DNA of 48,188 nucleotides, taken from positions 1 through 48,188 of the forward strand of contig NZ_JAFUAG010000032.1 of the NCBI RefSeq assembly GCF_017464355.1, read 5' to 3'. This document shows, one piece after another, positions 2,319 through 22,397 of this stretch. Both the position numbers and the translations under genes were made by a program. This stretch comes from Ruminococcus sp. GTDB taxonomy: Bacteria > Bacillota > Clostridia > Oscillospirales > Ruminococcaceae. Position 1 is the stretch's first letter; each line of letters opens with the position of its first letter. Under the pieces are notes generated by a model. That model was not told the DNA's origin and ran no database searches. It saw only the letters and a list, made by a program, of their open reading frames with translations.

Positions 2319-2890
2319 ATATATTGCAGGAGGAAAAAGTCGTAAAATGCGCCGTATGCGGCCTTGCGAAATATACACCTGCCGTTGAAAGAAATGGATA
2401 AAACGGACAGGATAGCCCTCTATATTGGAGATTTTCAACAAGTTAATCAGACTTTTCGTGTGAATATTGACAGATAAAAATTTATTGTGATATTACACAA
2501 AACAAAATGAAAAATAAATGTGAATTAAAAAGATGAAAACGTTACAACTTCCCGTTTTTTGCTATTTTCTTCTGCAAAGTGAACAAAAATCGCCGCACAG
2601 AGTTGTGCAGTGCGACGAAACAGTGAAAATGTACCAAAAATAAGGTCACTTAAACGTTTTAGTTAGCTTGACAAATTGATAGTTAATTGTTATAATAAAT
2701 GATAGCACAGTATGCCCTTTTGGGTATTTTCGATAAAAAATCTAGCAAAATCAACTTTAAACAAATTGATTTTTTGAACATATTGTACAGCAAATTCACG
2801 ATATTGCAAAGCAATATTTAATATATCACAAAATGTGAAAATTGCACAAAGCGTTAATTATTTCACTCCGCAGGAGGGAGGAAGAGCCCC
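2319..2890 (+). other. AT-rich intergenic leader of the 13.5 kb operon
   Basis: This 570-bp stretch has no convincing gene. From about 2441 it is much richer in A+T than its surroundings. It contains a possible weak upstream promoter (TTGACA 2467-2472, TGATATTAC ending 2496) and the consensus promoter at 2668-2696, giving a leader of about 190 nt. Small inverted repeats such as GATATTGCAAAGCAATATT (around 2800-2820) could fold in the leader. A frame at 2347 codes only 13 residues despite an upstream AGGAGG and is not called. Confidence 0.6.
2668..2696 (+). promoter_or_regulatory. Perfect consensus promoter of the 13.5 kb transport-like operon
   Basis: TTGACA (2668-2673), exactly 17 bp, then TATAAT (2691-2696). 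This is a full sigma-A consensus in an AT-rich context and predicts strong transcription starting near 2703. No operator palindrome overlaps it clearly. Confidence 0.85.
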
Positions 2891-3568
2891 ATGGACGTGA
2901 TACTGAGAACAGAGGCGCTCTACCGTGACTTCAAGATAGGTGACGGCAGCGTGGTATCTGCACTGAAAAATGTGAATATCGAGATAGAGAAAGGCAAGCT
3001 GACTATCCTGAGGGGACGCTCGGGCAGCGGCAAGACCACTCTGATAAATATACTGGGCGCGCTGGATAAGCCCACCAAAGGCAAGGTGCTGTTCGACGGA
3101 AAGGATATAACCAAGCTTTCCGAGGGCGCCAGGGATAACCTGCGAAGATACGATATGGCTTTCGTTTTCCAGTCGGTGGCGCTGATGTCGGGCATGACCG
3201 CCTTCGAGAATGTGGGCTTCGGCCTGAGGCTGGCAAAGTACCCTTATGACAAGCGCGATGCCAGGGCGAAGGAATGCCTGGCTGCGGTGGGGCTTGACAA
3301 GCGTATGGGTCACAGGCCCGGCGAGATGTCGGGCGGTGAGCAGCAAAGGGTGGCCATAGCAAGGGCTATCGCCCATGAGCCAAGGCTTATCTTTGCCGAT
3401 GAGCCTACAGCTGAACTGGATACCAACACCGCACTGCATATCGTCAAGCTTTTTAAAGAGCTGGTGGCGAAGCAGAATATGACTATAATCATGACTACCC
3501 ACGACCCCAGTATGATGGACGTGGCGGATAAAGTGTATACTCTTGAGGACGGTGAGATAGTTGGCTGA
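2891..3568 (+). CDS. ABC transporter ATP-binding protein, LolD/MacB type (first ATPase)
   Basis: A 225-residue stand-alone ATPase that would hydrolyse ATP on the cytoplasmic side of an ABC complex. Visible motifs are Walker A GRSGSGKTT (residues 42-50), Q-loop Q94, signature MSGGEQQRVAIARA (146-159), Walker B LIFADEP (166-172) with catalytic Glu171, and H-loop His204. Length and motifs match the LolD/MacB/FtsE-like group, which normally serve FtsX-fold permeases, and there is no C-terminal TOBE extension as in MalK/MsmX sugar ATPases. Start ATG 2891 follows a GGAGGGAGG site. It overlaps the second ATPase gene by 8 nt, suggesting a heterodimer. It is the first gene after the consensus promoter. 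Confidence 0.9.
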   Translation: MDVILRTEALYRDFKIGDGSVVSALKNVNIEIEKGKLTILRGRSGSGKTTLINILGALDKPTKGKVLFDGKDITKLSEGARDNLRRYDMAFVFQSVALMSGMTAFENVGFGLRLAKYPYDKRDARAKECLAAVGLDKRMGHRPGEMSGGEQQRVAIARAIAHEPRLIFADEPTAELDTNTALHIVKLFKELVAKQNMTIIMTTHDPSMMDVADKVYTLEDGEIVG

Positions 3569-4493
3569 TAATGATACTATTGTAACCCGTGCCGATGATG
3601 AATACATGATACGCTGTGAAAACCTCGTGAAGATATACAAAACTTCTGATGTTGAAGCGGTGGCGCTGCAAGGGCTTGACCTTGATGTGAAAAAAGGCGA
3701 GCTCATGGCTATAGTGGGAAATTCGGGCAGCGGTAAATCAACGCTGCTGAATATGCTGGGGGGACTTGACAGACCCTCGGCGGGAAGCTTGACGGTGGAC
3801 GGCAAAAATCTGCTGAAATTCACCGATAAGGACTACATGGAGTACAAGCGGGACACCGTGGGCTTCGTGTGGCAGAACAATGCGAGAAATCTGGTGCCTT
3901 ACCTGACAGCGGTGCAGAATGTTGAGCTGCCCATGCTGCTCAAGGGCAGAAAGGGCAGACGCGCGAGAGCGCTGGAGCTGCTGCGCAAGGTGGGGCTTGA
4001 AAAGAGGAAGAACAGCAGGCTCGACCAGATGTCGGGCGGTGAACAGCAAAGGGTGGCCATAGCGATCGCCATGGCAAATGACCCCAAACTCCTGCTGGCA
4101 GACGAGCCTACGGGCTCGGTGGATACGAAGACCTCTGCGATGATACTTGATATCTTCAAGGAGCTGAACAAGAGCGAGGGCGTGACGGTGGTCATCGTCA
4201 CCCATGACCTTAAGCTGGCTGACCATATCGACAGAGTGGTGGCTATAAGGGACGGCAGGACAAGCTCGGAGATAATCAGGAAAAGGTCTTATGCTGAGGA
4301 ACTCGGTGAGATGGGCGAGGTAATGACCTCGGAGGAAGCGACCCATGAGGAGCTGGCGGTGCTTGACAGGTCCGGCAGACTGCAGCTTCCCAAGGACTAT
4401 ATGCAGAGCCTTGGCATAAAAGGCGGCGGCAAGGTAAGGGTCGAGCTTGATGAGGAAAAGGGCGGCATAATGCTCTATCCCTCGGAGGATTAG
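3561..4493 (+). CDS. ABC ATPase fused to a C-terminal AbrB/SpoVT-like domain (second ATPase)
   Basis: A 310-residue protein starting at TTG 3561, overlapping the first ATPase gene. The ATPase domain (about 16-240) has Walker A GNSGSGKST (53-61), Q105, signature MSGGEQQRVAIAIA (157-170, Ile replacing the usual Arg), Walker B LLLADEP (177-183) and His215. After a linker (241-262), residues 263-307 read like a swapped-hairpin AbrB/MazE/SpoVT domain: LDRSGRLQLPKDYMQSLGI followed by GGKVRVELDEE. That domain family usually dimerises and often binds DNA. Here it could dimerise the ATPase, dock it to a partner, or sense something. No FtsX permease lies nearby; the downstream permeases are MalF/MalG-like. 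Confidence 0.88.
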   Translation: MADNDTIVTRADDEYMIRCENLVKIYKTSDVEAVALQGLDLDVKKGELMAIVGNSGSGKSTLLNMLGGLDRPSAGSLTVDGKNLLKFTDKDYMEYKRDTVGFVWQNNARNLVPYLTAVQNVELPMLLKGRKGRRARALELLRKVGLEKRKNSRLDQMSGGEQQRVAIAIAMANDPKLLLADEPTGSVDTKTSAMILDIFKELNKSEGVTVVIVTHDLKLADHIDRVVAIRDGRTSSEIIRKRSYAEELGEMGEVMTSEEATHEELAVLDRSGRLQLPKDYMQSLGIKGGGKVRVELDEEKGGIMLYPSED

Positions 4494-4626
4494 TTTTGTT
4501 TCTTAGCCTGCGGGCTTTGATAAATTGAGATCTGTTGGTTTTTCAGTGACACATAGGCGGTCGGCAAAAGCAGTGAGGATCTCAGGCTTTTACACAGCAC
4601 TTTATTTAGAAAGGGTGGATTCAATA

Positions 4627-7563
4627 GTGAAAAACACAATGTTTAGGCGTGTTATTTGCTCTGCTGTTGCACTCAGCTTGAGTGTTGGCTGCTTTGTTCC
4701 GACGGCTTTTGCAGATGCAGATGACTCTCTAGGCACCCGGGACGAAGCCGAAGCTGTTACAGGTACCGACAGTATTCGTCAGACTTCTTACAGCAAATAT
4801 CTGGAGAAGTATGAAGACACCGCGAGACCTGATATCGACGAGATAGTCATAAAAGGCTCCGATTACGTACCCGGTTCGGTGAGCGATGATCTTTCTCTCG
4901 GCACCGAGACCAGCTTCGAGGGCGTGGACGATGTCCTGTACTGGGCAAATCAGCAGGGTTCTGTATCGTATGAGGTGGATATACCTCAGGACGGCAGGTA
5001 TAACCTGAAAATGTCCTACTACGCACTGCCCGGCACGACCAACGATATCGAGTTCTCTCTGCTCATAGACGGTGAGAGCCCCTACGGTACCGCACAGCGT
5101 ATCACACTTGACAAGGTGTGGGTCAATGACGGTGATATCGGTGAAGATGCCAAGGGCAACGATATGAGGCCCGGACAGGTAGAGTTCCCCATGTGGCAGA
5201 TGAACAAGCCTGTGGCTGACGTTGACGGTCTTTATAACGAGCCCCTGCAGTTCTATATGACAGAAGGCAAGCACGTTCTGACTCTCGACTCGGACAAGGC
5301 ACAGTTCGTACTGGGTGACATAACTGTATACAATTATAAAGAGCCCAAGGAGTATGATGCGCCTTCATCGAACGACCTGGGCGCTACCAGAAATCAGAAG
5401 ATAATACTGGAGGGCGAGACCGCGACCTACAAGTCATCGAGAACTCTGTATCCTACCTCGGATAAGACCTCTTACATGACTTCAAGCTCAAAGGGCTACA
5501 GCCCCACCAAGACAAGATACAATACCATCGGCGGCGGCAACAACTGGAACCAGTCTACACAGGCTGTTACCTGGGAGTTCAGCGTCCCTGAGTCAGGCTT
5601 CTACAAGATAGGCATCTTCGGAAGACAGGACCAGATGAGAGGTATGTATTCCAACAGAAGGATATCCATAAACGGTGAAGTTCCCAATAAGGAGTCGGAG
5701 CAGGTAAAGTTCTACTACGACACCGACTGGGGCGTAGTTTCACCTTCAAACAAGGCGGGCAACCCCATGTACTACTTCCTGCAGGCAGGCACCAATACCC
5801 TGACTCTTGAAGCAGTCCCCGGTGAGATCGGTGAGATCATGGGCGAGCTGGACGATGTCGTATTCGATATCAACAGCTACTACCGCCAGATCAGACAGAT
5901 CACAGGTCCTTCTCCCGATGAATATAACAACTACATGATAGATGTGGCTATACCTGATATCATCGGTGATTTTGAGTATAACGCAGCACTGCTCAGACAG
6001 GAGAAGGAAAGGATCGAGCAGCTCTCGGGTTCGGGCGGAACAGAGGCCGAGACTCTTGAAAAAATGGCGATCGTACTTGATAAATGTGTTAAGAAGCCTG
6101 ATATAATCCCCGAAATGATGGGACAGATCAAGGATAACGTTACTGCGGTATCGACCTTTATTAATACTTACAGGATGCAGCCCCTCGAGGTGGACAAGAT
6201 CGAGATATGCACGAATGATGTTTCATTCTCGGATTGCAGCACTTCGTTCTTCGGCACTGTGGGACACGGCTTCCAGTCGTTCATAGGTTCGTTCTTTGAG
6301 GATTACAACTCCCTCTCCAACGATGAGGACGCTACAGCTCAGGAGTGCTGGATAACCCTCGGCCGTGATAACGCCGTTGTTATCAAGGAACTCATCGACA
6401 GCGACTATAACGCAAACAGCGACTCCAAGATCAACCTCAAACTGGTACAGGGCGGTATTACCGAGGCTACCTTCTCGGGCAAGGGCCCTGATATGGCGCT
6501 CTTCCTGGGCGGTGACTACCCCATTCAGCTGGCGGTAAGAGATACCCTGGTGGACCTGACACAGTTTGATGACTACGAGGAGATGACCAAGAGGTTCGCT
6601 CCCAATCTCATGACACTGTATACTTACAATGACGGCGTATACGGCCTGCCCTGCACACAGAATTTCCCCATGCTGTTCTACAGATCGGATATTCTTGCAG
6701 AGTATGATATCGACCCCGAATATGACCTGGTATCCTGGGACAGGATAATCAACTGCCTGCCCACTCTCCAGAGAAACTACCTTGAGGTCGGCCTGAGGCT
6801 GCCCGCTACAGCTACTGCGGGCGTTACGATAGTATCTGCCGTTACAGAGAACGGTAATACCTTCGCTATGATGCTGCTGCAGCAGGGTCTGAACTACTAT
6901 ACCGAGGATCAGACAAAGACTACCTTCGATCAGCAGCCTGCTATCAACGCTTTTGATACCTGGACAAAGTTCTATACAACTTACAGCTTCCAGCAGCAGT
7001 ACGATGCATTCACCAGATTCAGACAGGGCGATATGCCTGTGCTGGTAAATGACTACACCTTCTACAACCAGCTGACAGCTGCAGCACCCGAGATCAAGGG
7101 CTGCTGGTCCTTCAGAGCAGTTCCCGGCACCTTCGATGAGAACGGCAACCTGAACCATGCGGCTAACTCCGAGGGTCAGTGCTGCGTTATCTTCAAGAAG
7201 GCTCCCGATCCCGAGGCTGCATGGGACTTCATCAAGTGGTTCACAAGTGCTGATACCCAGATGAAGTACGGCAACAACATCGAATCCGTACTCGGACCTA
7301 TGGGCAGATATGCTACTGCAAACCAGGAAGCACTCAGAGGTCTGTCATGGACTACCAAGGAAGCAGATCTGCTCCTCGACCAGATGAATTCTCAGGTAGA
7401 GATACCGATCATACCCGCTTCCTACGGCGTTACCAGAAACGTCATGAACGCATTCAGAAGCGTCGTAAACGACAACGAGAATGCAAGAGATACCCTGTTC
7501 TGGTACAACAAGGATATCAACGACGAGATCACACGTAAGCGTGAAGACCTCGGCTTAGAATAA
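4627..7563 (+). CDS. Secreted two-lectin-domain solute-binding-like protein
   Basis: A 978-residue exported protein. GTG 4627 is chosen because AAAGGGTGG ends eight bases upstream and the next residues form a signal peptide (VKNTMFRRVICSAVAL, cleaved near AFA-DADD, about residue 32). Residues about 60-270 and 285-430 look like two carbohydrate-binding-type beta-sandwich modules (VSYEVDIPQDGRYNLKMSYY; VTWEFSVPESGFYKIGIFG), each ending in a strand typical of CBM6/35-like folds. A helical linker follows (about 435-560). The C-terminal half (about 575-950) matches MalE-type extracellular solute-binding proteins (GPDMALFLGGDYP, YGLPCTQNFPMLFYRSDIL, PEAAWDFIKWF). Ordinary CUT1 binding proteins are about 420 residues, so this one is more than double. 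Eighteen nt later comes a MalF-like permease. Confidence 0.85.
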   Translation: MKNTMFRRVICSAVALSLSVGCFVPTAFADADDSLGTRDEAEAVTGTDSIRQTSYSKYLEKYEDTARPDIDEIVIKGSDYVPGSVSDDLSLGTETSFEGVDDVLYWANQQGSVSYEVDIPQDGRYNLKMSYYALPGTTNDIEFSLLIDGESPYGTAQRITLDKVWVNDGDIGEDAKGNDMRPGQVEFPMWQMNKPVADVDGLYNEPLQFYMTEGKHVLTLDSDKAQFVLGDITVYNYKEPKEYDAPSSNDLGATRNQKIILEGETATYKSSRTLYPTSDKTSYMTSSSKGYSPTKTRYNTIGGGNNWNQSTQAVTWEFSVPESGFYKIGIFGRQDQMRGMYSNRRISINGEVPNKESEQVKFYYDTDWGVVSPSNKAGNPMYYFLQAGTNTLTLEAVPGEIGEIMGELDDVVFDINSYYRQIRQITGPSPDEYNNYMIDVAIPDIIGDFEYNAALLRQEKERIEQLSGSGGTEAETLEKMAIVLDKCVKKPDIIPEMMGQIKDNVTAVSTFINTYRMQPLEVDKIEICTNDVSFSDCSTSFFGTVGHGFQSFIGSFFEDYNSLSNDEDATAQECWITLGRDNAVVIKELIDSDYNANSDSKINLKLVQGGITEATFSGKGPDMALFLGGDYPIQLAVRDTLVDLTQFDDYEEMTKRFAPNLMTLYTYNDGVYGLPCTQNFPMLFYRSDILAEYDIDPEYDLVSWDRIINCLPTLQRNYLEVGLRLPATATAGVTIVSAVTENGNTFAMMLLQQGLNYYTEDQTKTTFDQQPAINAFDTWTKFYTTYSFQQQYDAFTRFRQGDMPVLVNDYTFYNQLTAAAPEIKGCWSFRAVPGTFDENGNLNHAANSEGQCCVIFKKAPDPEAAWDFIKWFTSADTQMKYGNNIESVLGPMGRYATANQEALRGLSWTTKEADLLLDQMNSQVEIPIIPASYGVTRNVMNAFRSVVNDNENARDTLFWYNKDINDEITRKREDLGLE

Positions 7564-7580
7564 GGAAAGGAGAGTGTTTT

Positions 7581-8516
7581 ATGGCTAAAAGATCAGATGC
7601 CCCTATGAACAAACAGGGCAAATGGGCTTATACCTGGCATATGATGAAGGTCAATAAGGGTTGCTATTTTATGCTCGTTCCTTTCATGATATTCTTCATA
7701 CTCTTTACGGTAGTACCCGTTGTAATGTCCCTGCCTATGGGCTTTACCAACTTTAACATGATACAGATGCCCAAGTGGGTAGGTCTGTCCAACTTCTACA
7801 CACTGTTCGTCAACGACGACGTGTTCCTTATCGCTGTCAGGAACACCCTGATATTCGCGATATTCACAGGTCCGTTCTCCTACGTTCTCAGCTTCCTTAT
7901 CGCGTGGCTGATAAACGAGATGAACGCTTTCCTGAAAACTTTCTTCACATTCGTATTCTACGCACCTTCGATGACTACTTCGGTATACGTTACCTGGCAG
8001 CTGATCCTCTCGGGCGACTCCTACGGTTACCTGAACGCTGTGCTGATGGACCTGGGTATCCTGAAATCTCCTGCACAGTGGATCACTGATACAAGATACA
8101 TACTGACAGTCGTTATCATCGTTCAGCTGTGGATGTCCATGGGTGCAGGCTTCCTTGCTATCCGTGCAGGCTTCCAGAACATCGACAAGTCCATGTACGA
8201 GGCAGGCGCTATCGAAGGTATCAAGAACAGATGGCAGGAACTTTTCAAGATCACTATCCCCTCTATGGGACCCCAGCTGCTGTTCGCTGCTGTTATGCAG
8301 ATATCCACTTCGTTCACAGTTGGTATGGTCGGCCAGAACCTGGTAGGTCTGCCTTCCACCGACTACGCTGCACATACCATAATGAACCACGCTACCGACT
8401 ACGGCTGGATACGTTATGAGATGGGCTATTCGTCTGCGATATGCTTTGTGCTGTTCGCTGCGATGCTTCTTGCCAATAAGGGCGTTAACTGGATCCTTGG
8501 CAAGTATCTTGATTAA
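7581..8516 (+). CDS. MalF-type (CUT1) ABC permease, first pair
   Basis: A 311-residue inner-membrane protein with six predicted helices, starting with a cytoplasmic basic segment and a first helix near FMLVPFMIFFILFTVVPVVM. The EAA loop that docks the ATPase is clear: YEAGAIEGIKNRWQELFKIT followed by IPSMGP (about residues 212-238). Family knowledge places it with sugar or oligosaccharide importers. Start ATG 7581 follows AAGGAGAG. It lies between the solute-binding protein and its MalG-type partner (18-nt gap), so it probably forms the translocation channel with that partner. Confidence 0.9.
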   Translation: MAKRSDAPMNKQGKWAYTWHMMKVNKGCYFMLVPFMIFFILFTVVPVVMSLPMGFTNFNMIQMPKWVGLSNFYTLFVNDDVFLIAVRNTLIFAIFTGPFSYVLSFLIAWLINEMNAFLKTFFTFVFYAPSMTTSVYVTWQLILSGDSYGYLNAVLMDLGILKSPAQWITDTRYILTVVIIVQLWMSMGAGFLAIRAGFQNIDKSMYEAGAIEGIKNRWQELFKITIPSMGPQLLFAAVMQISTSFTVGMVGQNLVGLPSTDYAAHTIMNHATDYGWIRYEMGYSSAICFVLFAAMLLANKGVNWILGKYLD

Positions 8517-8534
8517 AAGGGGGGAATATTACAA

Positions 8535-9437
8535 ATGGCTAGAAGAAAGAAAAAAGTGCAGTCTATCGAAAAGCTCAAGGTTTCCGACAAGAAAAAGCCT
8601 ATCAACGGTTCTCGTGCCGGTGACGTCTGCATTTTTATTTTCCTGGTACTTCTGGGTGCATTCATGGTATTCCCGCTGTACTACTCCGTGATACAGTCGC
8701 TGAAGCCTGTTGAGGAACTGTTCGTGTTCCCTCCCAAGCTTTACGTCATAAATCCCACGGGAAGAAACTTCTCGGATATGTTCAGAGTTGCGGCTAACTC
8801 CTGGCAGGTGCCGCTGTCGAGATATATCTTCAACAGCTTCTTTATTACAATAGTTATCTGTGCTGCGAACCTGTTCGTTTGCTGCTGTGCGGCATTCGTA
8901 CTTTCAAAGTGCAAGTTCCCCGGTGACAAGATCATAAACCAGATCATCGTACTTGCCCTGCTGTTCGCTTCCAACGCTACATGGATCATGCAGTTCATGG
9001 TAATGGCAAAGCTGCACATGATAGATACCTATTGGGCGCTCATACTCCCCAGCATCTCAACCTCCATAGGTCTGTACCTGATGAGACAGTCGATGTCCAC
9101 CATACACGACTCCATGGTCGAGGCTGCAAAGGTGGACGGCGCAGGTCTGTTCAGGATATGCTGGCAGATAGTCGTGCCCAACTCCAAGCCCGCACTGATG
9201 ACCCTGATAATCTTCGCATTCCAGGGCGCATGGAATATGCAGGGCGGCGCACTGACATACTCCGAAGAACTGAAAACACTACCTACAGTCGTACAGCAGA
9301 TCTCAGCGGCAGGTCTTGCCCGTCAGGGTGTTACCTTCGCATCGAGCGTTGTACTGCTCATTCCTCCGCTGCTGGTATTCCTCGTTGCCCAGGGTAACGT
9401 TATGGAGACCATGGCGAACTCCGGTATGAAGGATTGA
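8535..9437 (+). CDS. MalG-type (CUT1) ABC permease, first pair
   Basis: A 300-residue permease. A basic N-terminus (MARRKKKVQS) precedes six predicted helices, the first near VCIFIFLVLLGAFMVFPLYY. The EAA loop reads MVEAAKVDGAGLFRICWQIV with VPNSKP after it (about residues 195-222). Start ATG 8535 follows AAGGGGGG. It is the partner of the preceding MalF-type gene. No MalK-type ATPase is encoded in the window, so the energising subunit is either one of the two LolD-like ATPases at the operon head or a shared ATPase elsewhere. Confidence 0.9.
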   Translation: MARRKKKVQSIEKLKVSDKKKPINGSRAGDVCIFIFLVLLGAFMVFPLYYSVIQSLKPVEELFVFPPKLYVINPTGRNFSDMFRVAANSWQVPLSRYIFNSFFITIVICAANLFVCCCAAFVLSKCKFPGDKIINQIIVLALLFASNATWIMQFMVMAKLHMIDTYWALILPSISTSIGLYLMRQSMSTIHDSMVEAAKVDGAGLFRICWQIVVPNSKPALMTLIIFAFQGAWNMQGGALTYSEELKTLPTVVQQISAAGLARQGVTFASSVVLLIPPLLVFLVAQGNVMETMANSGMKD

Positions 9438-9481
9438 TAAGCATCCGACATCAGATCAGAAAAGGAAAAAGGTGATAAGTA

Positions 9482-11080
9482 GTGTTGAGAATAAAAAATT
9501 CTTTTAAGAAAATTCTCTGCGCAGGTCTGGCAGCTGTCGCTGCAATGTCGATGACGCTGGATGCCTTCGCAGCAGAGCCCTACAGATCCTACATCTACGA
9601 TACCTGGAACGACTCGATACCTTCTCAGAACGCTTACCGTATCGACAAAACAGTTACAGGCTACGAGATGGGCCTCAGCAGACTTTCCGACCCCGCAGAC
9701 TCCCTGTTCCTGGGTGAGAAAGCTTCGGCAAGACTGTCAAATGCCAAGGATATGTATTTTGACCCCGACGAAAAGGAATTCTGGATAGCAGATACGGATA
9801 ACAACCGTATCCTGCGCCTGGACGATGAGCTGAACCTCATCGGCGCTTATAACGAGCTTTCTGACGGCAGCCACTTCGCTGCTCCCTCGGGAATATATGT
9901 AAAGAGAAGTCTTTATGACGACAAGCCCCTTTACATCTACATTGCAGACTATGAGAATTCAAGAGTGATAAAGGCTTCGGTCGAGTCTGAGAATGAACTT
10001 AAGCTGGTGCAGGAATACACCAGACCCGATACCGACCTGTACACGGTCGAGACCTTTAACCCCTCAAAGGTAGTCGCTGACTTCGCTGAGAACGTTTATG
10101 CAGTTTGTACCTCTGTTAACCAGGGTGCGGTGCAGTTCAACAGATCGGGCAAGTTCCAGGGCTACTACGGTGCGAACCGAGTTGAGGTAACGGCTTCCGT
10201 TATCGCCCAGAAGCTCTGGAGAAAGTTCGCATCAAACGAGCAGATCTCAGGTATGACAAGAAACGTACCTGTTGAGTATGCAAACTTCGATATCGATGAG
10301 GGCGGCTTCATCTATACCGTTACCGAGGCGGCAAACACCACCACTGACGCGGTAAAGAAGCTGAACCCCGCAGGCTATAACATCTGGGACAACTCAACGG
10401 GTAATGAGTACAAGTTCGGCGATATCGCCTCTGAGTACGACCCCAGCCAGAACCAGACCTACTCCACCAGACTTACCGATATCTGCGTGTCTGACAATGG
10501 CCTGATAAATGTTCTTGACTTCTCTACAGGACGTGTTTTCCAGTACGACAGAAACGCAAAGCTCCTTTGCATCTTCGGTACAAAGAACTCTACCAACGAC
10601 CAGAGAGGAAGCTTCTCCAACCCCAACGCTGTTGAAGCTTACAACAATAACATCTACGTTATAGACGGTTCAAAGAACGATATCACTATCTATTCCGAAA
10701 CTACCTTCGGCGCACTTATGCACGAAGCAGTTGAGCTTTACGACCAGGGCAGATACTCTGAGGCTAAGCCTATCTGGGAGAACGTTATCGCAAGAGACGG
10801 CGGTTATCCTATGGCTTATGTAGGCCTCGGCAAGGCTGCACTGAATGAGGGCGAGTACAGCAAGGCTCTTGATTATTTCGAGACCGCTTATGACCAGGAC
10901 GACTACGACAGAGCATTCAAGTATGCAAGAGAAGAATTCCTGAAGAAGAACTTCACTGCTATCGTTGTTGTTTTACTGGTGCTGGTAGTGTTCCTGTTCG
11001 TTCTGTCCAAGCTCCATAAGAAGGGCATTTACCTGATAAAGGGCAGGTTCGGCAAGAAAAAAAAGAGGGAGGGAAGATAA
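9482..11080 (+). CDS. Secreted NHL-type beta-propeller protein with TPR and C-terminal TM anchor
   Basis: A 532-residue protein from GTG 9482 (GGTGAT five bases upstream). It has a signal peptide (residues 1-31, ending DAFA). A propeller region follows (about 75-410) with recurring NHL-like blades such as FWIADTDNNRILRLDDELN and IYIADYENSRVIKA. Residues about 415-478 form one or two TPR helical hairpins (ALMHEAVELYDQGRYSEAKP; MAYVGLGKAALNEGEYSKAL). A single membrane helix (about 490-508) and a strongly basic tail (GRFGKKKKREGR) put the C-terminus in the cytoplasm, so the propeller faces outside. NHL propellers bind proteins or polymers, and no enzyme motif is seen. It lies 3 nt before the Yip1-type gene. 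Confidence 0.8.
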   Translation: MLRIKNSFKKILCAGLAAVAAMSMTLDAFAAEPYRSYIYDTWNDSIPSQNAYRIDKTVTGYEMGLSRLSDPADSLFLGEKASARLSNAKDMYFDPDEKEFWIADTDNNRILRLDDELNLIGAYNELSDGSHFAAPSGIYVKRSLYDDKPLYIYIADYENSRVIKASVESENELKLVQEYTRPDTDLYTVETFNPSKVVADFAENVYAVCTSVNQGAVQFNRSGKFQGYYGANRVEVTASVIAQKLWRKFASNEQISGMTRNVPVEYANFDIDEGGFIYTVTEAANTTTDAVKKLNPAGYNIWDNSTGNEYKFGDIASEYDPSQNQTYSTRLTDICVSDNGLINVLDFSTGRVFQYDRNAKLLCIFGTKNSTNDQRGSFSNPNAVEAYNNNIYVIDGSKNDITIYSETTFGALMHEAVELYDQGRYSEAKPIWENVIARDGGYPMAYVGLGKAALNEGEYSKALDYFETAYDQDDYDRAFKYAREEFLKKNFTAIVVVLLVLVVFLFVLSKLHKKGIYLIKGRFGKKKKREGR

Positions 11081-11083
11081 GCT

Positions 11084-11713
11084 ATGTATGAATTTACACC
11101 TGTAGGCTGGCTGAAGCATTGTATCTTCCACCCTGTTGAGGGCTTTGAAGACCTCAGATGGAAGAAGCAGGGTTCCATGAAGATCGCCCTGATAATAGTT
11201 TTCTTCCTGTTCGTCGCAATGGTGGCTGACAGACAGATGACAGGCTTCCAGTTCAATAACAACTATGTCAAGATTTTCAATGTGGTACCGCTGATAGTTC
11301 AGTCGGTGGTATACTACTTTACCTGGTGCGTGGGCAACTGGTCCATATGCACACTCCTCGAGGGTGAGGGTACCTTCAGGAAGATAAGCATATACTCCGC
11401 TTATTCTCTGGTGCCTTACATCGTATGCACAATAATAAAGGTCATCTTCTCGAATTTCCTGGTGCAGGAAGAATCCATCTGGATAACTGCACTGACCTAT
11501 CTGGGCTTTGGCTGGTCCATAGTTCTGATGATACAGGCGATGAGAGCCTGCCACCAGTATTCATTCAGCAAAACGCTGATCTCCATGGTGCTGACACTGG
11601 TAGCCATGCTGCTGATACTGTTCCTGGCAATACTGCTGCTCTCACTGTTCCAGCAGGTTTACGTATTCATCTATCAGATCTACACTGAGATCGCGTATAG
11701 GATCCGAGGCTAA
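11084..11713 (+). CDS. Yip1-family-like membrane protein
   Basis: A 209-residue protein with about five membrane helices between residues 38 and 200 and a short amphipathic N-terminus, PVGWLKHCIFHPVEGFEDLR. The N-terminal Pro-x-x-GFEDL/R pattern followed by hydrophobic segments is typical of bacterial YIP1-family proteins. The pattern AYSLVPYIVCTIIKVIFSN supports this family. Its bacterial function is unknown. It starts 3 nt after the propeller gene and may be the membrane partner of that protein's tail. Confidence 0.75.
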   Translation: MYEFTPVGWLKHCIFHPVEGFEDLRWKKQGSMKIALIIVFFLFVAMVADRQMTGFQFNNNYVKIFNVVPLIVQSVVYYFTWCVGNWSICTLLEGEGTFRKISIYSAYSLVPYIVCTIIKVIFSNFLVQEESIWITALTYLGFGWSIVLMIQAMRACHQYSFSKTLISMVLTLVAMLLILFLAILLLSLFQQVYVFIYQIYTEIAYRIRG

Positions 11714-11733
11714 TTAGAAACGGTGGTGTAAAA

Positions 11734-14112
11734 ATGGCAAACAAAAATTATAAAAAGGCTGTTGTCTTTGGTTTGTGTCTTGCAATGCTGACGCCTCTGG
11801 GTTCTATGGCAGTTACTTCGGCTGATGTCGAAGAGGAAACTGCTGCGGTCGAGGAAACAGTTGAGGAGGTCGCAGAGGACGAGAGCACCTCGGAGGACGA
11901 GGATAAGCTCCCCGATAAGATCTCCAATGAGCAGGCTGCCGCTATGGCGCAGAAGCTCAGCGAGAACGACAACTTCATACTCTACGGAGATGAAGAGAAC
12001 GAAAGACTGGGCCTTTATGTAAAGAGCACAGACAAATACTGGTGGACTTCACCTATTAATGTTTATGCCGATGATATCGTGGTTGACCCCGAAAAGGGCG
12101 ACATGATGAAAACAGCGCTGAGAAAGCAGATCGCTTCCAGCTGCGCTATCAAGGTCGGCGACCTGAGACAGGAGAAGAGGACTGAGTCCGCTGCACCTGT
12201 TTACTCCAACAAGGCAAGAGTTTCCTGGCAGACCAACGACAAGGGCGCGGTCATCACATATGACTACAAGTCCGAGGGCGTTAAGCTGAAGGTACATTAC
12301 GAGCTGTGTGAGGACAGCCTGTATGTATACGTAAACAGCGCTGAGGTCGAGGAGGCTAACATCTCTACTGTTGACGGAAAGATACTTACAAAGCTTCAGC
12401 TTTGTCCCTACTTCGCAGCAACTCCCTCGGTGGACTATGAGGGCAACCCCACACAGGGCTACATGATAATCCCCGACGGCAGCGGCGCAGTTATCAACTA
12501 CAATAACGGCAAGGGCAACTACCCCGACTACGTTCAGCAGGTATACGGCAGAGATTACACCATGGTGCCTCTGACCGCGCCCAGAGTTATCGAGCAGGCT
12601 TACCTGCCCGTACTCAGCACTGTTTACGGTGACGGCGGTATCGTTGCAGTAGTTACCGACGGTGACTCCAATGTGTACACAAGGGCTCAGGTAAGCGGAC
12701 AGAACAAGCAGGTGTACAACAACTGCTACTTCGAGTTCGAGACCCGTTCCTCCGATGCGTTCTTCATGAGCGGCGACTCCGCCAACAAGCTGAACGTCTT
12801 CGAGAAGGACGGCATAAAGACTGAGCGCTTCGGTATACATTACTACCCTGTAGCTTCCAAGGACGGCGGCATGGTAAACTATGCTGACTGCGCTGAGGTA
12901 TACAGAAACTACCTGATAAAGGAAAAAGGCCTGAAACAGCAGGATACCTCCGATAACAAGCTGTATATGGATATGTACGGCGGCGTGCTGAAGAGGACCT
13001 CCATACTGGGTCTGCCCTTTAACCTGAAGACTGAGATAACAGGCTTCGACCAGGCAGGCGAGATAGTAGATGAGCTCAAGGGCAAGGGCGTTGACAGCTT
13101 CGCTGTTAACTACAATGACTGGACTAACTCCGCTATCAAGGGCAATATCTCCACATCGGTGAGCCCCTCGGGCACCCTGGGCGGAAACGGCGATTTCAAG
13201 GATTTCCTGGCTACTGAAAATGTTGACGTTTATCCTTCGATGAACAACTTCACCATGAAGAAGTCCAGCGCAGGCTACTGGACGCTGACAAGCACAGCTA
13301 TCAGAATTTCCAACGCTTATTCAAGACAGTCTTCCTACAGCCTTTCATTCGGTGTTCAGCAGAAGGGCGTCGCACCCGCACTGCTCTCACCCAGCAAGTA
13401 CTCAAAGACCTTTGAGGAAATGATAGAGAGCTACGGCGATGAAAAGGTAGATAAGGCAGGCTTCGGTTACTTCTCCACCAGACTTGTGGGAGATTATACC
13501 AGAAAGGATACCTACTCCAGAAACAAGACCATGAACCTGCTGGTAGATGAGTACAGCAAGGCTCAGAACAGCATAGGCTCCCTGATAGCAGATGAAGCCA
13601 ACGCTTACGTTCTGCCTTATGTATCTACAGTTACAGGCGTGCCTGTTTCCTCCAGCGGATTTGATCTTACTGACTTTGATATCCCGTTCTATCAGATGGT
13701 GCTGCACGGCTATGTGCCCTACGCATCAAACGCTATCAACAAGAGCTCCAATACTGACGAGACCTTTATGCTGGCTCTCGCTTCGGGCTCGCAGATACAC
13801 TACGACTTCACTTATGCTGACAGCGATGTCCTCCAGGATACAGAGTATAACGACCTGTATTATACCAACTACAGAGGCTGGACAGATGCCGCTGCTAACC
13901 AGTTCAAGGCATCTGAGGAGCTGCTCAGCGGTGTTACCGGCTACACTATCAGCAATTACGAAGTAAGCGCTGACGGCAATGAATTCACTACAACATACTC
14001 CAAGGACGGTCAGAAGGACGTTGTAGTTGTTATCAACAAGAAGGACGCTACCGCGTCGGTTGACGGCAAGGCTGTCAGCATTGAAAATTGTATTGAAGGA
14101 GGTTTGAGATAA
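11734..14112 (+). CDS. Large secreted DUF5696-like protein
   Basis: A 792-residue exported protein starting at ATG 11734. A signal peptide (about 1-30) is followed by a very acidic linker (residues 31-60). The rest resembles DUF5696 proteins, recalled as a family without a demonstrated activity: an N-terminal beta-rich region (about 75-330, with GYMIIPDGSGAVINYNNGKG) and a TIM-barrel-like second half (about 400-700, with LKGKGVDSFAVNYNDWTN). The barrel-like half recalls glycoside hydrolases, but I cannot identify paired catalytic acids with confidence. The gene's stop shares a base with the start of the next permease gene (TAATG), so translation is coupled. Confidence 0.78.
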   Translation: MANKNYKKAVVFGLCLAMLTPLGSMAVTSADVEEETAAVEETVEEVAEDESTSEDEDKLPDKISNEQAAAMAQKLSENDNFILYGDEENERLGLYVKSTDKYWWTSPINVYADDIVVDPEKGDMMKTALRKQIASSCAIKVGDLRQEKRTESAAPVYSNKARVSWQTNDKGAVITYDYKSEGVKLKVHYELCEDSLYVYVNSAEVEEANISTVDGKILTKLQLCPYFAATPSVDYEGNPTQGYMIIPDGSGAVINYNNGKGNYPDYVQQVYGRDYTMVPLTAPRVIEQAYLPVLSTVYGDGGIVAVVTDGDSNVYTRAQVSGQNKQVYNNCYFEFETRSSDAFFMSGDSANKLNVFEKDGIKTERFGIHYYPVASKDGGMVNYADCAEVYRNYLIKEKGLKQQDTSDNKLYMDMYGGVLKRTSILGLPFNLKTEITGFDQAGEIVDELKGKGVDSFAVNYNDWTNSAIKGNISTSVSPSGTLGGNGDFKDFLATENVDVYPSMNNFTMKKSSAGYWTLTSTAIRISNAYSRQSSYSLSFGVQQKGVAPALLSPSKYSKTFEEMIESYGDEKVDKAGFGYFSTRLVGDYTRKDTYSRNKTMNLLVDEYSKAQNSIGSLIADEANAYVLPYVSTVTGVPVSSSGFDLTDFDIPFYQMVLHGYVPYASNAINKSSNTDETFMLALASGSQIHYDFTYADSDVLQDTEYNDLYYTNYRGWTDAAANQFKASEELLSGVTGYTISNYEVSADGNEFTTTYSKDGQKDVVVVINKKDATASVDGKAVSIENCIEGGLR

Positions 14113-15065
14113 TGAGCGATAGTAAAAAGACTGCTTCCGTCAATACAGGTGCAAAGGCTGAGAAAAAGCACAGACTTTCATATGAGAAGAGGAAGGGACT
14201 CTACGGCTACGGCTTTATTGCCCTGTGGGCGCTGGGTACCATATACTTCTTCCTGATGCCTCTGGTCGTATCGCTTATCTACTCGTTCAATGAGACCAAG
14301 GTACAGCCCGGCGGCATGGAGATGAAATACATAGGTTTCAAGAACTACGTGAATGCCTTCCGTAAGGACCAGGATTATTCACTGGCGCTGGTGGATATGC
14401 TCAAGAACACCGCCCTGAGAACACCTCTGATAATCATCTTCTCCATATTCATCGCACTGGTACTTAACCAGAAGTTCAAAGGCAGAACTTTCGCAAGAGC
14501 AGTATTCTTCCTGCCTGTTATCATCGCTACAGGTCCTGTAATGGACATCATCAACGGCAACATGAGCACAGGCGGCTACTCAGGCGGTTCTGAACAGTTC
14601 AGCACCATGTTCGAGGCTAACCTCGTTGACCAGCTGCTGAACTTCCTGGGTATCTACAACATCAGTGACAGACTGTCGAGCATTATCAATTCGCTGACTA
14701 CCGACATCTTCAACCTGGTGTGGAACTCGGGTATTCAGATACTCCTGATACTGGCAGCCCTGCAGGGCATCTCGCCTGCTTCCAAGGAGGCAGCGCAGAT
14801 GGAGGGCGCTACATCATGGGAATTCTTCTGGAAGATAACTCTTCCCACTATCAGCCCTATGATACTCGCAAGCGTAGTTTATACAGTAGTTGACTCTTTC
14901 GTAGACCCCGCAAACAAGGTAATGACCATAGTTCTCAACAAGTCTACCAACTGGGATCACGGATATTCAGCGGCAATGGCATGGGCATACTTCCTCATCA
15001 TAGGCGTTTGCCTGGCTATCATAGTTGCCATACTGAACAAGGTCATCTACTACGAAGTAGAGTAA
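14112..15065 (+). CDS. MalF-type (CUT1) ABC permease, second pair
   Basis: A 317-residue permease with a cytoplasmic basic N-terminus, six predicted helices and the EAA loop SKEAAQMEGATSWEFFWKIT followed by LPTISP (about residues 222-247). A larger than usual periplasmic-side loop lies around residues 150-195. Start ATG 14112 overlaps the previous stop, and GGAGG sits ten bases upstream inside the DUF5696-like gene. It differs clearly from the first MalF-type protein, so this is a second transporter and not a recent duplicate. Confidence 0.9.
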   Translation: MSDSKKTASVNTGAKAEKKHRLSYEKRKGLYGYGFIALWALGTIYFFLMPLVVSLIYSFNETKVQPGGMEMKYIGFKNYVNAFRKDQDYSLALVDMLKNTALRTPLIIIFSIFIALVLNQKFKGRTFARAVFFLPVIIATGPVMDIINGNMSTGGYSGGSEQFSTMFEANLVDQLLNFLGIYNISDRLSSIINSLTTDIFNLVWNSGIQILLILAALQGISPASKEAAQMEGATSWEFFWKITLPTISPMILASVVYTVVDSFVDPANKVMTIVLNKSTNWDHGYSAAMAWAYFLIIGVCLAIIVAILNKVIYYEVE

Positions 15066-15078
15066 AGGGGGGATAGAA

Positions 15079-16125
15079 GTGGCGACTAAAAAAGAAGAAA
15101 AGCAGTTTGAAAAAGAACGTAAGGCTGCGATCAAGGCGCGTGAAAAGCGCATGAAGGAGATAGGTCTTGAAAAGTTCCTGACTCCCGAGCAGATAAAGTA
15201 CAACAGAAGACAGAAAGTCATCGGTGCTGTATGGCCCGTGTTCAGATTTCTCATACTCTTCGGCCTGTGCTTCATCATACTCTATCCTCTGATATTCATG
15301 CTCTCAACAGCGTTCAGACCCTCTGAGCAGATGAATGACCCTTCTATCATCTGGATCCCCAAGAACTTTACTCTTGATAACGTTAAGCAGACCTGGGGCG
15401 TAATGAAGTTCGACAAGACCCTTGTCAACACCATTATCCTCAACCTGGTAGCTTCCATACTCCAGGTGGCTACCTGCTCCATAACAGGCTACGGCTTCGC
15501 AAGATTTAAGTTCAAGGGCAAGAACCTCCTGTTCGGCATAGTCATCATGATGATAATCGTGCCTCCCCAGATCACAACTATTCCTCTGTATATGCAGTAT
15601 GCATATCCTCCCAAGTTCCTGGCCAGCCTGCTGACACTGGGCAAGTCCACCTCGCTGATAAACAGCCCCTGGACCATGTATCTGCCCGCACTGTTCGCAA
15701 ACGGCATAAGAGCAGGTCTGTTCATCTTCATCTTCCGTCAGTTCTTCAGAGGACTCCCCAAGGAGCTTGAAGATGCAGCATATCTGGACGGCTGCTCACC
15801 TCTTTACACCTATGTAAAGATAATGATACCTAACGCAAGGCAGTCCTTCCTGACAGTTTTCCTGTTCTCCATCGTATGGTACTGGAACGACTACTATGTA
15901 TCCAGCTCATTCTTCACCAACAACGACACCGTTGCACTGATGCTGAAGAATCTGAATACAAACCTGATACAGCAGCTGTTCGACGGTCAGTCGGTATCTG
16001 TTCGTCAGATAATCGTTTGGCTGGAAGCAGGTTGTCTGCTGTCTATAACACCTATACTGATAATGTATGTATTCCTGCAGAGATACTTCGTTGAAGGTAT
16101 CGAAAAGTCGGGTCTTGCAAACTAA
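15079..16125 (+). CDS. MalG-type (CUT1) ABC permease, second pair
   Basis: A 348-residue permease with an unusually long, Lys/Arg/Glu-rich cytoplasmic N-terminus (about 50 residues, KKEEKQFEKERKAAIKAREK) before the first helix. The EAA loop reads LEDAAYLDGCSPLYTYVKIM followed by IPNARQ (about residues 231-257). Start GTG 15079 follows GGGGGGAT. It is the last gene of the operon and a strong terminator follows. No periplasmic binding protein is encoded next to this second pair, so it may share the 978-residue protein or use the DUF5696-like protein instead. Confidence 0.9.
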   Translation: MATKKEEKQFEKERKAAIKAREKRMKEIGLEKFLTPEQIKYNRRQKVIGAVWPVFRFLILFGLCFIILYPLIFMLSTAFRPSEQMNDPSIIWIPKNFTLDNVKQTWGVMKFDKTLVNTIILNLVASILQVATCSITGYGFARFKFKGKNLLFGIVIMMIIVPPQITTIPLYMQYAYPPKFLASLLTLGKSTSLINSPWTMYLPALFANGIRAGLFIFIFRQFFRGLPKELEDAAYLDGCSPLYTYVKIMIPNARQSFLTVFLFSIVWYWNDYYVSSSFFTNNDTVALMLKNLNTNLIQQLFDGQSVSVRQIIVWLEAGCLLSITPILIMYVFLQRYFVEGIEKSGLAN

Positions 16126-16138
16126 CCTGTATAAGTTC

Positions 16139-16176
16139 AAAGGCACTTCTGTCATCAAGACAGAGGTGCCTTTTTT
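16139..16176 (+). terminator. Terminator of the 13.5 kb operon
   Basis: AAAGGCACTTCTGTC (16139-16153), loop ATCAA, GACAGAGGTGCC (16159-16170), then six T. This is a classic Rho-independent terminator 13 nt after the last permease gene. Confidence 0.9.
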
Positions 16177-16224: not shown

Positions 16225-17874
16225 TTAGTCTTTATCCTCGTCGGAGTCCTTGTCCGCGGGCTTGTCGTTTACGATACCGCCGATGACATCGTTGATATCC
16301 TCCTCGGCCTTTCTCATCATCTCACCGAAGGTGTTGAAGCCCTCGGCTGCATTTTCAAAGGTGCTTCTGAGCATATCCTTGAAGAAGTATCCGCCGCTTT
16401 CCGACTTCGGGGGGATATCCTTCTCGGGCGCAGGCTCGGCCGACTTTTCGGGCGCCTTTTCCTCCTTCGGGGGAGTGAATGTGGTGGAGATGTTGTTGGC
16501 CGATATCTCGCAGCCTCTGCCAAACCTGGAATATATCAGGTCGAGAGCCTGCTTGGGCAGGGTCACATCGTCCATTTCCAGCTTTGCACCGCTGCAGCTG
16601 TCGGTGTTTATCATCATTTCCACACCATCATCGGTGACTTTAACATTTTTCAGCTTTACAGTGCAGCCGTCCCCCACCTTGGCCAGCAGCATGGAAAGGG
16701 CATAGGCTGTCATGCCCACGCTCTGCACCTCAAAATTGCAGGCGGTCGAGGTATTGCCTATCATCATGAAGCTGCGGTCGTCACAGGGGGTTATCACACT
16801 GCCCCTGAGCTTTACGTTGCAGGCACTGCCTATCTGCACCAGTTTGTCAGCAAAGCCGCTTTCGTCCAGGTCAAGGTCAGCGAAGTCCAGCTCCTGTCCG
16901 TTTTTGCCTGTGGTAAAGGTCTTGAAATTGTCCTCCTCACCGTTGTCAACGTAGTCAGGCTTGCTCTCGCTGCCGAAAACGCTGCCGTCAGGGTCGATGC
17001 CCTGCTTTACCTGGTCGATGACTTTCTCAATATCAAAGCCCTGCCTTGCCTTGTCGATTATCTTGTCCACATCGAAGCCCTGCTTGCCCATGTCGATGAG
17101 CTTTTTAAAAGCCCCGCCGCCGATGGTCAGGTCGGGCATTTCAAACCTGAAGCCCGTATCGCGGCTGTCCTTGCCGAACAAGCCCCGTCTTCTGCTGTTC
17201 TCATTCAGCCACTGCTGATAGCTCATGTTCTCCAGCATGGAGTAGGCTGTGGGGTCAAGGGGCGCAAAGAACCGTGCAGGTGCCCTCTCCTGTGTGATTA
17301 TTATGCTCCAGTCCTCAGCATTGGCTGTGTTGAAGGGCAGCTCAAAAACTCTCAGCAGCCCTGTCTTGTCCCGCTTGCTGATGACGGGTTCAAAGCGGCT
17401 CTTCTCCAGTGCAAAGGTCAGCCTGTCGTCCCACCTGTTCTCGGGATAGATGTTCACCTGGGATACCTCGGTGCCGTCCTCATTGTGCCCGCCTGTCATG
17501 GCAAAGCGGAAGGTATAATCGGTATACCGCTGAAGCTTCATCTTGCTGATTATCTGTGTCCTGTGTTTATCGTGGTCGCCTATCTCCCAGACCTCGGTGT
17601 TGCCCAGGGTAGTGGTCATGAAGGCGCGCTGGCCTGCGTTCAGGCGGCAGCTTTTGTCAAAACCGAATTTTCTCGGGTCAAAACTAATTATCTTGCTCAT
17701 TATGTCGTCCTCCGTTTTTATCTCTTCGGTCGGAGCGTGAGCAGTTACCAGACGTATCTCACAGTCGCTGACATACTCTGCCCGACCGTTCTTTACCAGC
17801 CCCTCAGCCCGTTTAGGGTAGGTGCTGCCTATTACGTTCCCGTTTGCGTCTGTTACAATGATGTTTTTTTTCAT
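16225..17874 (-). CDS. 549-residue protein of unknown function with internal repeats
   Basis: Start ATG 17874 follows GGGGAGGA. Visible regions are: 1-45, a small motif (VTDANGNVIGSTYPKRAEGL, then KNGRAEYV) recalling RRXRR-like short modules; about 55-240, a beta-rich globular region; about 255-300, three helical repeats around KQGFDVDKIIDKARQGFDIE; about 345-480, five repeats each with one Cys in a similar setting (SACNVKL, TACNFEV, DGCTVKL, DSCSGAKL, RGCEISA); then a Pro/Glu/Lys linker and an acidic helical tail. There is no signal peptide, so it is cytoplasmic. It is a single-gene unit with its own strong promoter. I do not know its family; Cys-patterned repeats and a charged tail suggest a scaffold or regulatory protein. 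Confidence 0.75.
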   Translation of the reverse strand: MKKNIIVTDANGNVIGSTYPKRAEGLVKNGRAEYVSDCEIRLVTAHAPTEEIKTEDDIMSKIISFDPRKFGFDKSCRLNAGQRAFMTTTLGNTEVWEIGDHDKHRTQIISKMKLQRYTDYTFRFAMTGGHNEDGTEVSQVNIYPENRWDDRLTFALEKSRFEPVISKRDKTGLLRVFELPFNTANAEDWSIIITQERAPARFFAPLDPTAYSMLENMSYQQWLNENSRRRGLFGKDSRDTGFRFEMPDLTIGGGAFKKLIDMGKQGFDVDKIIDKARQGFDIEKVIDQVKQGIDPDGSVFGSESKPDYVDNGEEDNFKTFTTGKNGQELDFADLDLDESGFADKLVQIGSACNVKLRGSVITPCDDRSFMMIGNTSTACNFEVQSVGMTAYALSMLLAKVGDGCTVKLKNVKVTDDGVEMMINTDSCSGAKLEMDDVTLPKQALDLIYSRFGRGCEISANNISTTFTPPKEEKAPEKSAEPAPEKDIPPKSESGGYFFKDMLRSTFENAAEGFNTFGEMMRKAEEDINDVIGGIVNDKPADKDSDEDKD

Positions 17875-19212: not shown

Positions 19213-19218
19213 CCAAAA

Positions 19219-19527: not shown

Positions 19528-19531
19528 TGAG

Positions 19532-22324: not shown

Positions 22325-22397
22325 GCCCCGTATAGTTCAAACGGTAAAACACCGCCTCCACACGGCGGAGCAGACGGTCCGACTCCGTCTGCGGGGC
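22325..22397 (+). tRNA. tRNA-like cloverleaf, anticodon position CAC, non-canonical
   Basis: A seven-bp acceptor stem (CCCCGTA with TGCGGGG) is extended by an extra G-C pair. U8, A9, G10-C25, A14, G18G19, A21, anticodon stem CCGCC/GGCGG, a 4-nt variable loop and T-stem GACGG/CCGTC all fit tRNA geometry. The anticodon loop TCCACAC puts CAC (Val) at 34-36 but C at 33 in place of U. The T-loop TCCGACT has C at 55 in place of U, and position 13-22 is C-A. CCA is not encoded. The body resembles tRNA-Gly. It may be a pseudo-tRNA or a specialised non-decoding tRNA; a normal decoding role is doubtful. Confidence 0.5.

Follow-up and report, generated by a model that had tools for sequence, protein, structure and literature searches.

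A conserved Ruminococcus operon probably encodes a scaffolded double sugar importer together with the ATPases of a separate MacB-like transporter

To our knowledge, the uptake of large plant glycans by Gram-positive fibre degraders of gut and soil is poorly known. In Sphingomonas, the alginate importer AlgM1M2-AlgS-AlgQ has a MalFG-type channel that is proposed to carry very long glycans, with one permease pair and its own ATPase. ATP-binding cassette (ABC) systems of the MacAB/LolCDE type (type VII), such as YknWXYZ of Bacillus subtilis, consist of a LolD-class ATPase, an HlyD-like adaptor, and an FtsX-domain permease. In the available parts of PMC12838199 and PMC8579813, carbohydrate uptake transporter 1 (CUT1) importers with a shared MsmX/MsmK ATPase, such as Athe_0595-0598 of Anaerocellum bescii, have a Family 1 solute-binding protein (SBP), MalF/MalG-type permeases, no MalK-type ATPase in the operon, and a link to growth on cellulose. 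Here we analyze 48,188 nucleotides (the window) from a rumen fibre-degrading Ruminococcus sp., whose genome (G000) comprises 3.48 Mb in 49 contigs. ORF (open reading frame) calling and Pfam searches identified ten same-strand ORFs at positions 2891-16125 (+). Eight of them make up what we call the core, in the order SBP1-MalF1-MalG1-NHL/TPR-YIP1-DUF5696-MalF2-MalG2, and two ATPase genes, ATP1 and ATP2, stand ahead of it. Our preferred reading, with a probability of roughly 0.6, is that the core is a scaffolded double CUT1 importer for complex plant-cell-wall oligosaccharides and that ATP1 and ATP2 belong to a separate MacB-like transporter.

The core begins with SBP1 (4627-7563), a secreted protein that matches SBP_bac_8 (2.1e-22) and SBP_bac_1 (1.9e-15) and so supplies the Family 1 SBP of a CUT1 importer. 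The first permease pair follows, with MalF1 at 7581-8516 (PF00528, 2.4e-7) and MalG1 at 8535-9437 (PF00528, 7e-8; UgpE, 1.2e-27). Next come the NHL/TPR protein (9482-11080; NHL propeller, 3.8e-10; TPR_16, 1.3e-9), the polytopic membrane protein YIP1 (11084-11713; Yip1, 4.3e-16), and the DUF5696 protein (11734-14112), which has an N-terminal signal-like segment and matches PF18952 over nearly its full length (3.7e-155, profile positions 4-609 of 612). The second pair consists of MalF2 at 14112-15065 (UgpA, 8.3e-13; PF00528 at 22.7 bits, below the cut-off) and MalG2 at 15079-16125 (PF00528, 1.2e-17). All four permeases carry the EAA loop, and the CUT1 pattern of two MalF/MalG-type permeases with this loop therefore occurs twice in the operon. 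The spacings between the ten genes, in order, are -8, 133, 17, 18, 44, 3, 20, -1, and 13 nt. An earlier note, made from the DNA letters alone, had described these genes as an operon of nine. The operon was confirmed, although there are ten ORFs (and the note's own list names ten). Its families were also borne out by Pfam, NCBIfam, the EAA loops, and hydrophobicity: two MalF/MalG-type pairs, an NHL/TPR protein with a transmembrane (TM) anchor, a Yip1-type protein, and a DUF5696 protein.

The core is widely kept. We compared 138 loci: 40 among the strong DUF5696 matches of a search of 197 same-family genomes, 78 named loci taken from the best 80 DUF5696 relatives by similarity, and 20 from a search of 398 genomes sampled from the phylum. 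These loci were chosen via DUF5696, so the counts describe how often neighbours accompany DUF5696 and not the frequency of the set. DUF5696 itself was matched at E <= 1e-3 in 81 of the 197 same-family genomes (62 of these at E < 1e-100) and in 46 of the 398 phylum genomes. The full core order was found in 39/40 family, 66/78 named, and 14/20 phylum loci (119/138 overall). Nine loci duplicate another by DUF5696 sequence; among the 129 distinct loci, 111 have the core order, 12 are truncated where the contig or locus stops, and the other six are rearranged or incomplete. Of the incomplete loci among all 138, 13 are end-cut, which accounts for every named locus (12) and the one family locus without the full order; three have only NHL-YIP1-DUF5696-MalF2-MalG2; and three have SBP1 behind MalG2 (with MalF1 there too in two). 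Chance clustering of the core genes is ruled out by the order in the 111 distinct loci. The earlier note had said that a gene order conserved in no relative would speak against it, and the comparison came out the other way. Rumen species with the core include R. albus and R. flavefaciens, and the order is kept in several families of the phylum. Among the best 80, the closest named DUF5696 relatives are those of R. albus 8 (89%), Ruminococcus sp. RUG10798 (88%), and R. albus AR67 (82%).

Two features of the phylum loci bear on how the parts might work together. In 9 of the 20, the NHL protein and YIP1 are fused as one protein, and contact between these two proteins is therefore predicted. Also, by Pfam, 11 or more of the 20 have a second SBP of ordinary size next to the core (L150-L153, L155-L158, and L165-L167; a further candidate in L168 had no Pfam match). 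SBP1 is about twice as long as these second SBPs. That so many cores have a second SBP beside them suggests that the ancestral state was two full importers, each with its own SBP.

A MalK/MsmX-type ATPase with an OB domain, which CUT1 importers also need, is not encoded in the operon; four matches to the MalK-type OB domain (PF17912) lie elsewhere in the window genome. PF17912 was found in 59 of the 62 genomes with strong DUF5696 matches, versus 97 of the 135 others (Fisher p 1.1e-4). In one locus (L054), a MalK-type ATPase gene lies upstream, separated from the core by a single gene. ATP1/ATP2 and MalK-type ATPases showed no anti-correlation in the genome listing, where PF17912 matches occur in both groups. 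Most likely, the sugar channels draw their energy from an MsmX/MalK-type ATPase that the genome encodes elsewhere and shares among importers, the arrangement described for the CUT1 importers of A. bescii in the available part of PMC12838199.

The surface parts of the core are less usual. The earlier note had described SBP1 as a 978-residue protein with two lectin-like modules. The length stands, with a GTG start at 4627, whereas the modules appear only as CBM-like (carbohydrate-binding module) similarity in the N-terminal half, below curated cut-offs (CBM_35, 1.6e-4; Golvesin_C, 3.4e-4). For the C-terminal part, the best PDB profile was Lin1841 (5ysb, 7.2e-30). Ordinary Gram-positive SBPs carry a lipobox. 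By a simple pattern (our lipobox and TM calls all rest on simple patterns), SBP1 has no lipobox in 51 of the 56 loci scanned, and therefore another part must hold it. A natural candidate is the NHL/TPR protein, which has a signal-like hydrophobic segment at its N terminus (residues 11-29) and a C-terminal TM anchor (residues 491-509).

DUF5696 may be a distant relative of known enzymes. In PDB profile searches, it showed weak similarity to a GH129-like 3,6-anhydro-D-galactosidase (5OPQ; E 1.5e-5 for the whole sequence, 0.16 and 2.5 for single stretches; GH, glycoside hydrolase) and to NagBb (5WZN; E 0.028). This similarity is collinear and spans the N-terminal part and the barrel part. We take residue 330 of the NagBb chain to be the catalytic nucleophile. 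The facing position in DUF5696 is a K in the window and, in a weak alignment of 38 sequences, is variable and generally not acidic; in the same sequences, conserved carboxylates are few, with no pair invariant. Single Pfam scans of the 38 members yielded no other convincing family. DUF5696 possibly has a GH129-like fold without the conserved nucleophile, with the GH129/GH101 fold taken as described in the available part of PMC8106489. Separately, second, distant DUF5696 copies (26% identity) occur in two same-genus genomes (G605:C3:138017-139741 and G618:C1:17061-18782).

ATP1 (2891-3568; ABC_tran, 4e-34) and ATP2 (3561-4493; ABC_tran, 4.5e-34) are ABC ATPases of the LolD/MacB class. Both match LolD best among the NCBIfam models, as the earlier note's term "LolD-like" would have it, yet their scores (210.9 and 227.5 bits) fall below the curated cut-off of 307.75 bits. 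Lipoprotein release of the LolCDE type was rejected because both ATPases are under this equivalog cut-off. In ATP1, the Walker A, signature, Walker B, and H-loop motifs are intact. Neither ATPase has an OB_MalK match in Pfam. ATP2 ends in an AbrB/MazE-type domain (residues 269-308, window 4365-4484; MazE_antitoxin, 9.7e-6), which could serve ATPase dimerisation or regulation. This tail is retained in 13 aligned ATP2 proteins and, by eye, in 12 stand-alone ATP2 proteins, and is missing from one operon copy (L251).

The neighbours of ATP1 and ATP2 in other genomes point to a different transporter. FtsX was found in 36 of the 197 family genomes, of which 15 have no strong DUF5696 match (three of these, G030, G097, and G179, have weak partial matches). 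We fetched the loci of 13 of the 15 (all except G070 and G159). In all 13, a membrane fusion protein (MFP) gene and FtsX are followed by ATP1, with ATP2 next in 12 (the contig ends in the thirteenth), and no core genes are present. We also searched for MFP and FtsX in 31 genomes: 16 with ATP1/ATP2 in the operon (G071 is included on a partial ATP2 at a contig end), G035, whose operon is cut at that place, and 14 without ATP1/ATP2. Both MFP and FtsX were found in 16/16 of the first group and in G035, and in 0/14 of those without (Fisher 6.9e-9 for 16/0 versus 0/14, uncorrected for kinship). In the window genome, the MFP-FtsX pair lies on another contig than the operon (G000:C32:3904-7923). Around the MFP-FtsX pairs, 16 of the 17 stretches fetched have no ATP1/ATP2-like genes (E 1e-6); the exception (L223) has one, at 159 bits, as the third gene downstream. 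In at least 11 loci (the named loci L101-L103, L105, L107-L109, L115, and L116, together with L032 and L070), the sugar operon itself continues into an MFP gene and a large permease gene. In L101, Pfam identifies the adaptor (HlyD_D23, 5.9e-10) and the permease (FtsX, 3.3e-20, in two stretches), and the gene ahead of them as GH26; L070 and the eight remaining named loci have homologues of that gene at the corresponding position. From the stand-alone operons and the co-occurrence, we infer that ATP1 and ATP2 go with the type VII transporter. By this genetic linkage, they are most likely the ATPases of a separate MacB-like MFP-FtsX system. In this lineage, the sugar operon opens with their genes, so co-production of both systems is probable.

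A tree of 125 loci, built with FastTree from the eight core proteins and rooted at the midpoint (it includes eight duplicate pairs), tells a similar story. ATP1/ATP2 are present in 52 loci, absent from 62, and of unclear status in 11; with duplicates dropped (117 loci), 47 have them and 60 do not. Apart from L041, which sits outside at the base of a 102-locus clade, the bearers form one clade of 54 loci (support 1.0). Within that clade, the exceptions are L076 and L090, along with L046, whose status is unclear. The L076 genome has no FtsX match at 1e-6 and no ATP2 orthologue. The L090 genome has FtsX only as a 42-residue stretch in a stop-broken frame (G594:C37:16125-16250) and no ATP2 orthologue. 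These look like two co-losses of ATP1/ATP2 with FtsX. Four genomes of the R. flavefaciens group (L121, L139, L142, and L144) have neither FtsX nor ATP2.

Two further observations concern these genes. In R. albus 7, the type VII MFP gene (G604:C5, near 3545 kb; L256:1-879) and the sugar operon are only some 22 kb apart. In 11 loci (L069, L121, L129, L134, L136, L138, L139, L142, L144, L146, and L148), a divergent ABC ATPase gene is found upstream of SBP1; these score only 70-86 bits to ATP1, and three of them, by eye, resemble ABC-2 export ATPases.

The genes beside the core give hints as to the substrate. A GH95 homologue lies behind the core in 7/40 family and 7/78 named loci (verified by Pfam in L082), and single loci have GH26, GH106 with a pectate lyase, GH10, GH28, GH30, GH35 with a putative glucoamylase, or GH38. 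Among the neighbours of the window's own core that we scanned with Pfam, there was no glycan-degrading gene. Since the glycan-degrading neighbours vary, the core looks like a general architecture that serves different plant glycans.

There may also be expression data for this operon. In R. albus 7, the operon is at G604:C5:3,568,499-3,581,837, on what we take to be the chromosome, and adjoins a PGA_cap (CapA) gene. Genes reported as up on cellulose versus cellobiose, in the part of PMC4300822 available, include Rumal_3179 (CapA, 4.68-fold), the permeases Rumal_3184 (4.16-fold) and Rumal_3185 (4.12-fold), and the family 1 SBP Rumal_3186 (4.18-fold). That paper names Rumal_3184-3187 as an ABC transporter operon with at least 4-fold transcription. 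The operon probably includes these four genes: on the chromosome, no PF00528 genes were found beyond 2.99 Mb other than this operon's. Scaling tag numbers from trpA (Rumal_1712, 1.97 Mb) would put tag 3184 near 3.66 Mb and tag 3107 at the operon's position. Two details disagree with the mapping. There are five genes between CapA and MalG1, where the tags allow four, and the table in the available part of PMC4300822 gives CapA no signal peptide, while CapA here starts like a lipoprotein. The remaining core genes are not in that paper's table of >4-fold changes, as available. Another candidate for the R. albus 7 counterpart, Rumal_1426-1429, was dropped: it is expected near 1.64 Mb, and no PF00528 gene is near (the nearest listed are at 0.69 and 2.08 Mb). 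The earlier note had linked the operon to a polymer or complex glycan, and both the hydrolase and pectate lyase neighbours and the probable induction of this operon on cellulose in R. albus 7 (PMC4300822, in part) support that link.

If our preferred reading is right, SBP1, with its CBM-like N-terminal half and apparently no lipid anchor, would capture glycan at the cell surface. The membrane-anchored NHL/TPR protein and its partner YIP1 would keep SBP1 and DUF5696 at the membrane beside the channels. DUF5696 would be a carbohydrate-handling protein, possibly with a GH129-like fold that lacks the usual nucleophile. Both MalFG pairs would import, each with its own SBP where the second SBP gene has been kept beside the core, and both would be powered by a common MsmX/MalK-type ATPase whose gene lies elsewhere. 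ATP1 and ATP2 would serve the MacB-like transporter, whose HlyD-like adaptor and double-FtsX permease are encoded elsewhere in the genome.

Several observations weigh against this account. No second SBP adjoins the core in the window. The lipobox-like pattern in 15 of 60 DUF5696 proteins implies that not every copy needs a scaffold for retention at the membrane. The link to GH129 is based on weak scores, and the same list of matches contains a spurious designed PPR protein at 4.9e-5. Three genomes with strong DUF5696 matches have no PF17912 match (G194, 93% complete; G034, 70%; G049, 75%), and since the family commonly has MalK-type ATPases in any case, finding them is weak evidence. Regarding the ATPases, one genome without ATP1/ATP2 (G108) has a weak FtsX match (8.5e-7). 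The loci with ATP1/ATP2 are nearly one clade, so the co-occurrence represents few independent events, and the co-losses are weakened by the unstated completeness of the L076 and L090 genomes. Finally, ATP1 and ATP2 sit inside the sugar operon and so could serve the MalFG pairs too.

This last point is the basis of one alternative, in which ATP1 and ATP2 were recruited as dedicated ATPases of the MalFG pairs, either as a heterodimer or one per pair, to give a chimaeric LolD-driven sugar importer. The two genes do head the same operon in 52 of the 125 tree loci (47 of 117 without duplicates), and the ATPase motifs are intact. But the stand-alone homologues neighbour MFP-FtsX in loci free of core genes, both ATPases are missing along with FtsX in genomes where the core persists, 62 of the 125 core loci do without them, and a MalK-type ATPase is nearly always present in genomes with the core. 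We consider this alternative improbable. Its strongest form, in which the channels are driven solely by ATP1/ATP2, is rejected by the core loci that lack them and by their partnership with MFP-FtsX; the link between these ATPases and the sugar channels implied in the earlier note is not supported, on the same grounds. It is also possible, if on balance unlikely, that the two systems form an integrated surface machine in which MFP-FtsX-ATP1-ATP2 and the double importer act on one glycan; the type VII part might, for example, translocate or release a lipoprotein or a glycan-binding protein at the surface, which would then supply the importer. The shared operon fits this idea, as do the co-variation of the type VII system with the core in the family and the loci (at least 11) with MFP-FtsX within a few ORFs behind MalG2, ten of which have the GH26-lipoprotein homologue in between (one verified by Pfam). 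However, the two halves also occur separately, with the core only in 62/125 tree loci and the type VII system only in 13 loci, and shared regulation would yield the same pattern.

The core might instead be a sensing complex, in which permeases and propeller report extracellular glycans and do not import them. Its large surface proteins have no recognised catalytic domain, DUF5696 seems to lack the conserved nucleophile, and LacI-like regulators are seen by eye beside some cores (L051, L154, L155, L165, and L167). Against this, the core has two complete permease sets with EAA loops and SBP genes from importer families, and beside most cores neither a sensor nor a regulator was seen (by clustering and by eye only). 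We view a sensing role as very improbable.

The earlier note had placed a consensus promoter and a terminator around the operon, and we found both. The promoter, at 2668-2696 (+), is of the sigma-70 type (TTGACA-17-TATAAT, with TG ahead of the -10 box) and matches the consensus at 12/12 positions; both boxes are invariant in aligned upstream regions from the window and eight relatives. The intrinsic terminator, at 16139-16173 (+), has a 15-pair stem and a T-run. Only in the 133-nt gap ahead of SBP1 would a second transcription start or a processing site be plausible, and no promoter reaching a 9-of-12 match was found there. At gathering thresholds, Rfam identified no leader in the 5' region of the operon. 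The promoter and leader region (2491-2891) has repeats of the word TTGTRCA/TGCACAA in both orientations; this word is partly conserved in relatives by eye and is possibly an operator. A 7-bp inverted repeat with a 3-nt spacer lies at 2801-2817. Directly behind the terminator, where R. albus 7 has its CapA gene, is a 549-amino-acid ORF with no Pfam match (16225-17874, -). Farther along are genes for a glutathione peroxidase, a MarR regulator, and a thioredoxin-reductase-like protein in a row (18227-20443), a BspA-type leucine-rich repeat protein (20753-22213, -; LRR_5, 2.5e-25), and a tRNA (22326-22397, +), which is the sole Rfam match in the window at the same thresholds.

Each part of this locus belongs to a known family. 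As far as our searches of the open-licence PubMed Central literature reach, the widely kept double-importer architecture is undescribed there: we found no description of the set, nor any paper on DUF5696. The core provides a component list for a scaffolded double importer, which should aid the annotation of YIP1, NHL/TPR, and DUF5696 proteins, and the reassignment of the LolD-like ATPases to another pump would be an annotation correction. The MFP-FtsX system with ATP1 and ATP2 resembles the MacAB/LolCDE type in its LolD-class ATPases, HlyD-like adaptor, and FtsX-domain permease. It differs in having two different ATPases, one with an AbrB/MazE tail, two FtsX stretches per permease chain, and ATPase genes that are detached into a sugar operon. 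DUF5696 is similar to GH129-type enzymes (NagBb and the 3,6-anhydro-D-galactosidase) in its weak but collinear profile match and, as far as a weak alignment can tell, unlike them at the nucleophile-aligned position and in having no invariant carboxylate pair. The core shares a MalFG-type channel with the Sphingomonas alginate importer, which has no second pair and is not known to have scaffold genes of this sort. Unlike the A. bescii-type CUT1 importers, as described in the available parts of the papers cited above, it has two permease pairs per operon, an NHL/TPR anchor, YIP1, DUF5696, and a long SBP1 without a lipobox. A bolder and rather doubtful extension would make the locus a Gram-positive glycan-uptake machine, in which two CUT1 channels share the propeller/TPR-YIP1 scaffold, a giant CBM-bearing SBP, and a hydrolase-like receptor without catalytic activity; glycans that are long or branched would be held and then threaded through, or passed between, the channels, and in the Ruminococcus lineage the machine would be coupled to a MacB-like mechanotransmission pump on the surface side. 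Such a machine, with two coupled CUT1 channels, would be the Firmicute counterpart of SusCD in Bacteroidetes.

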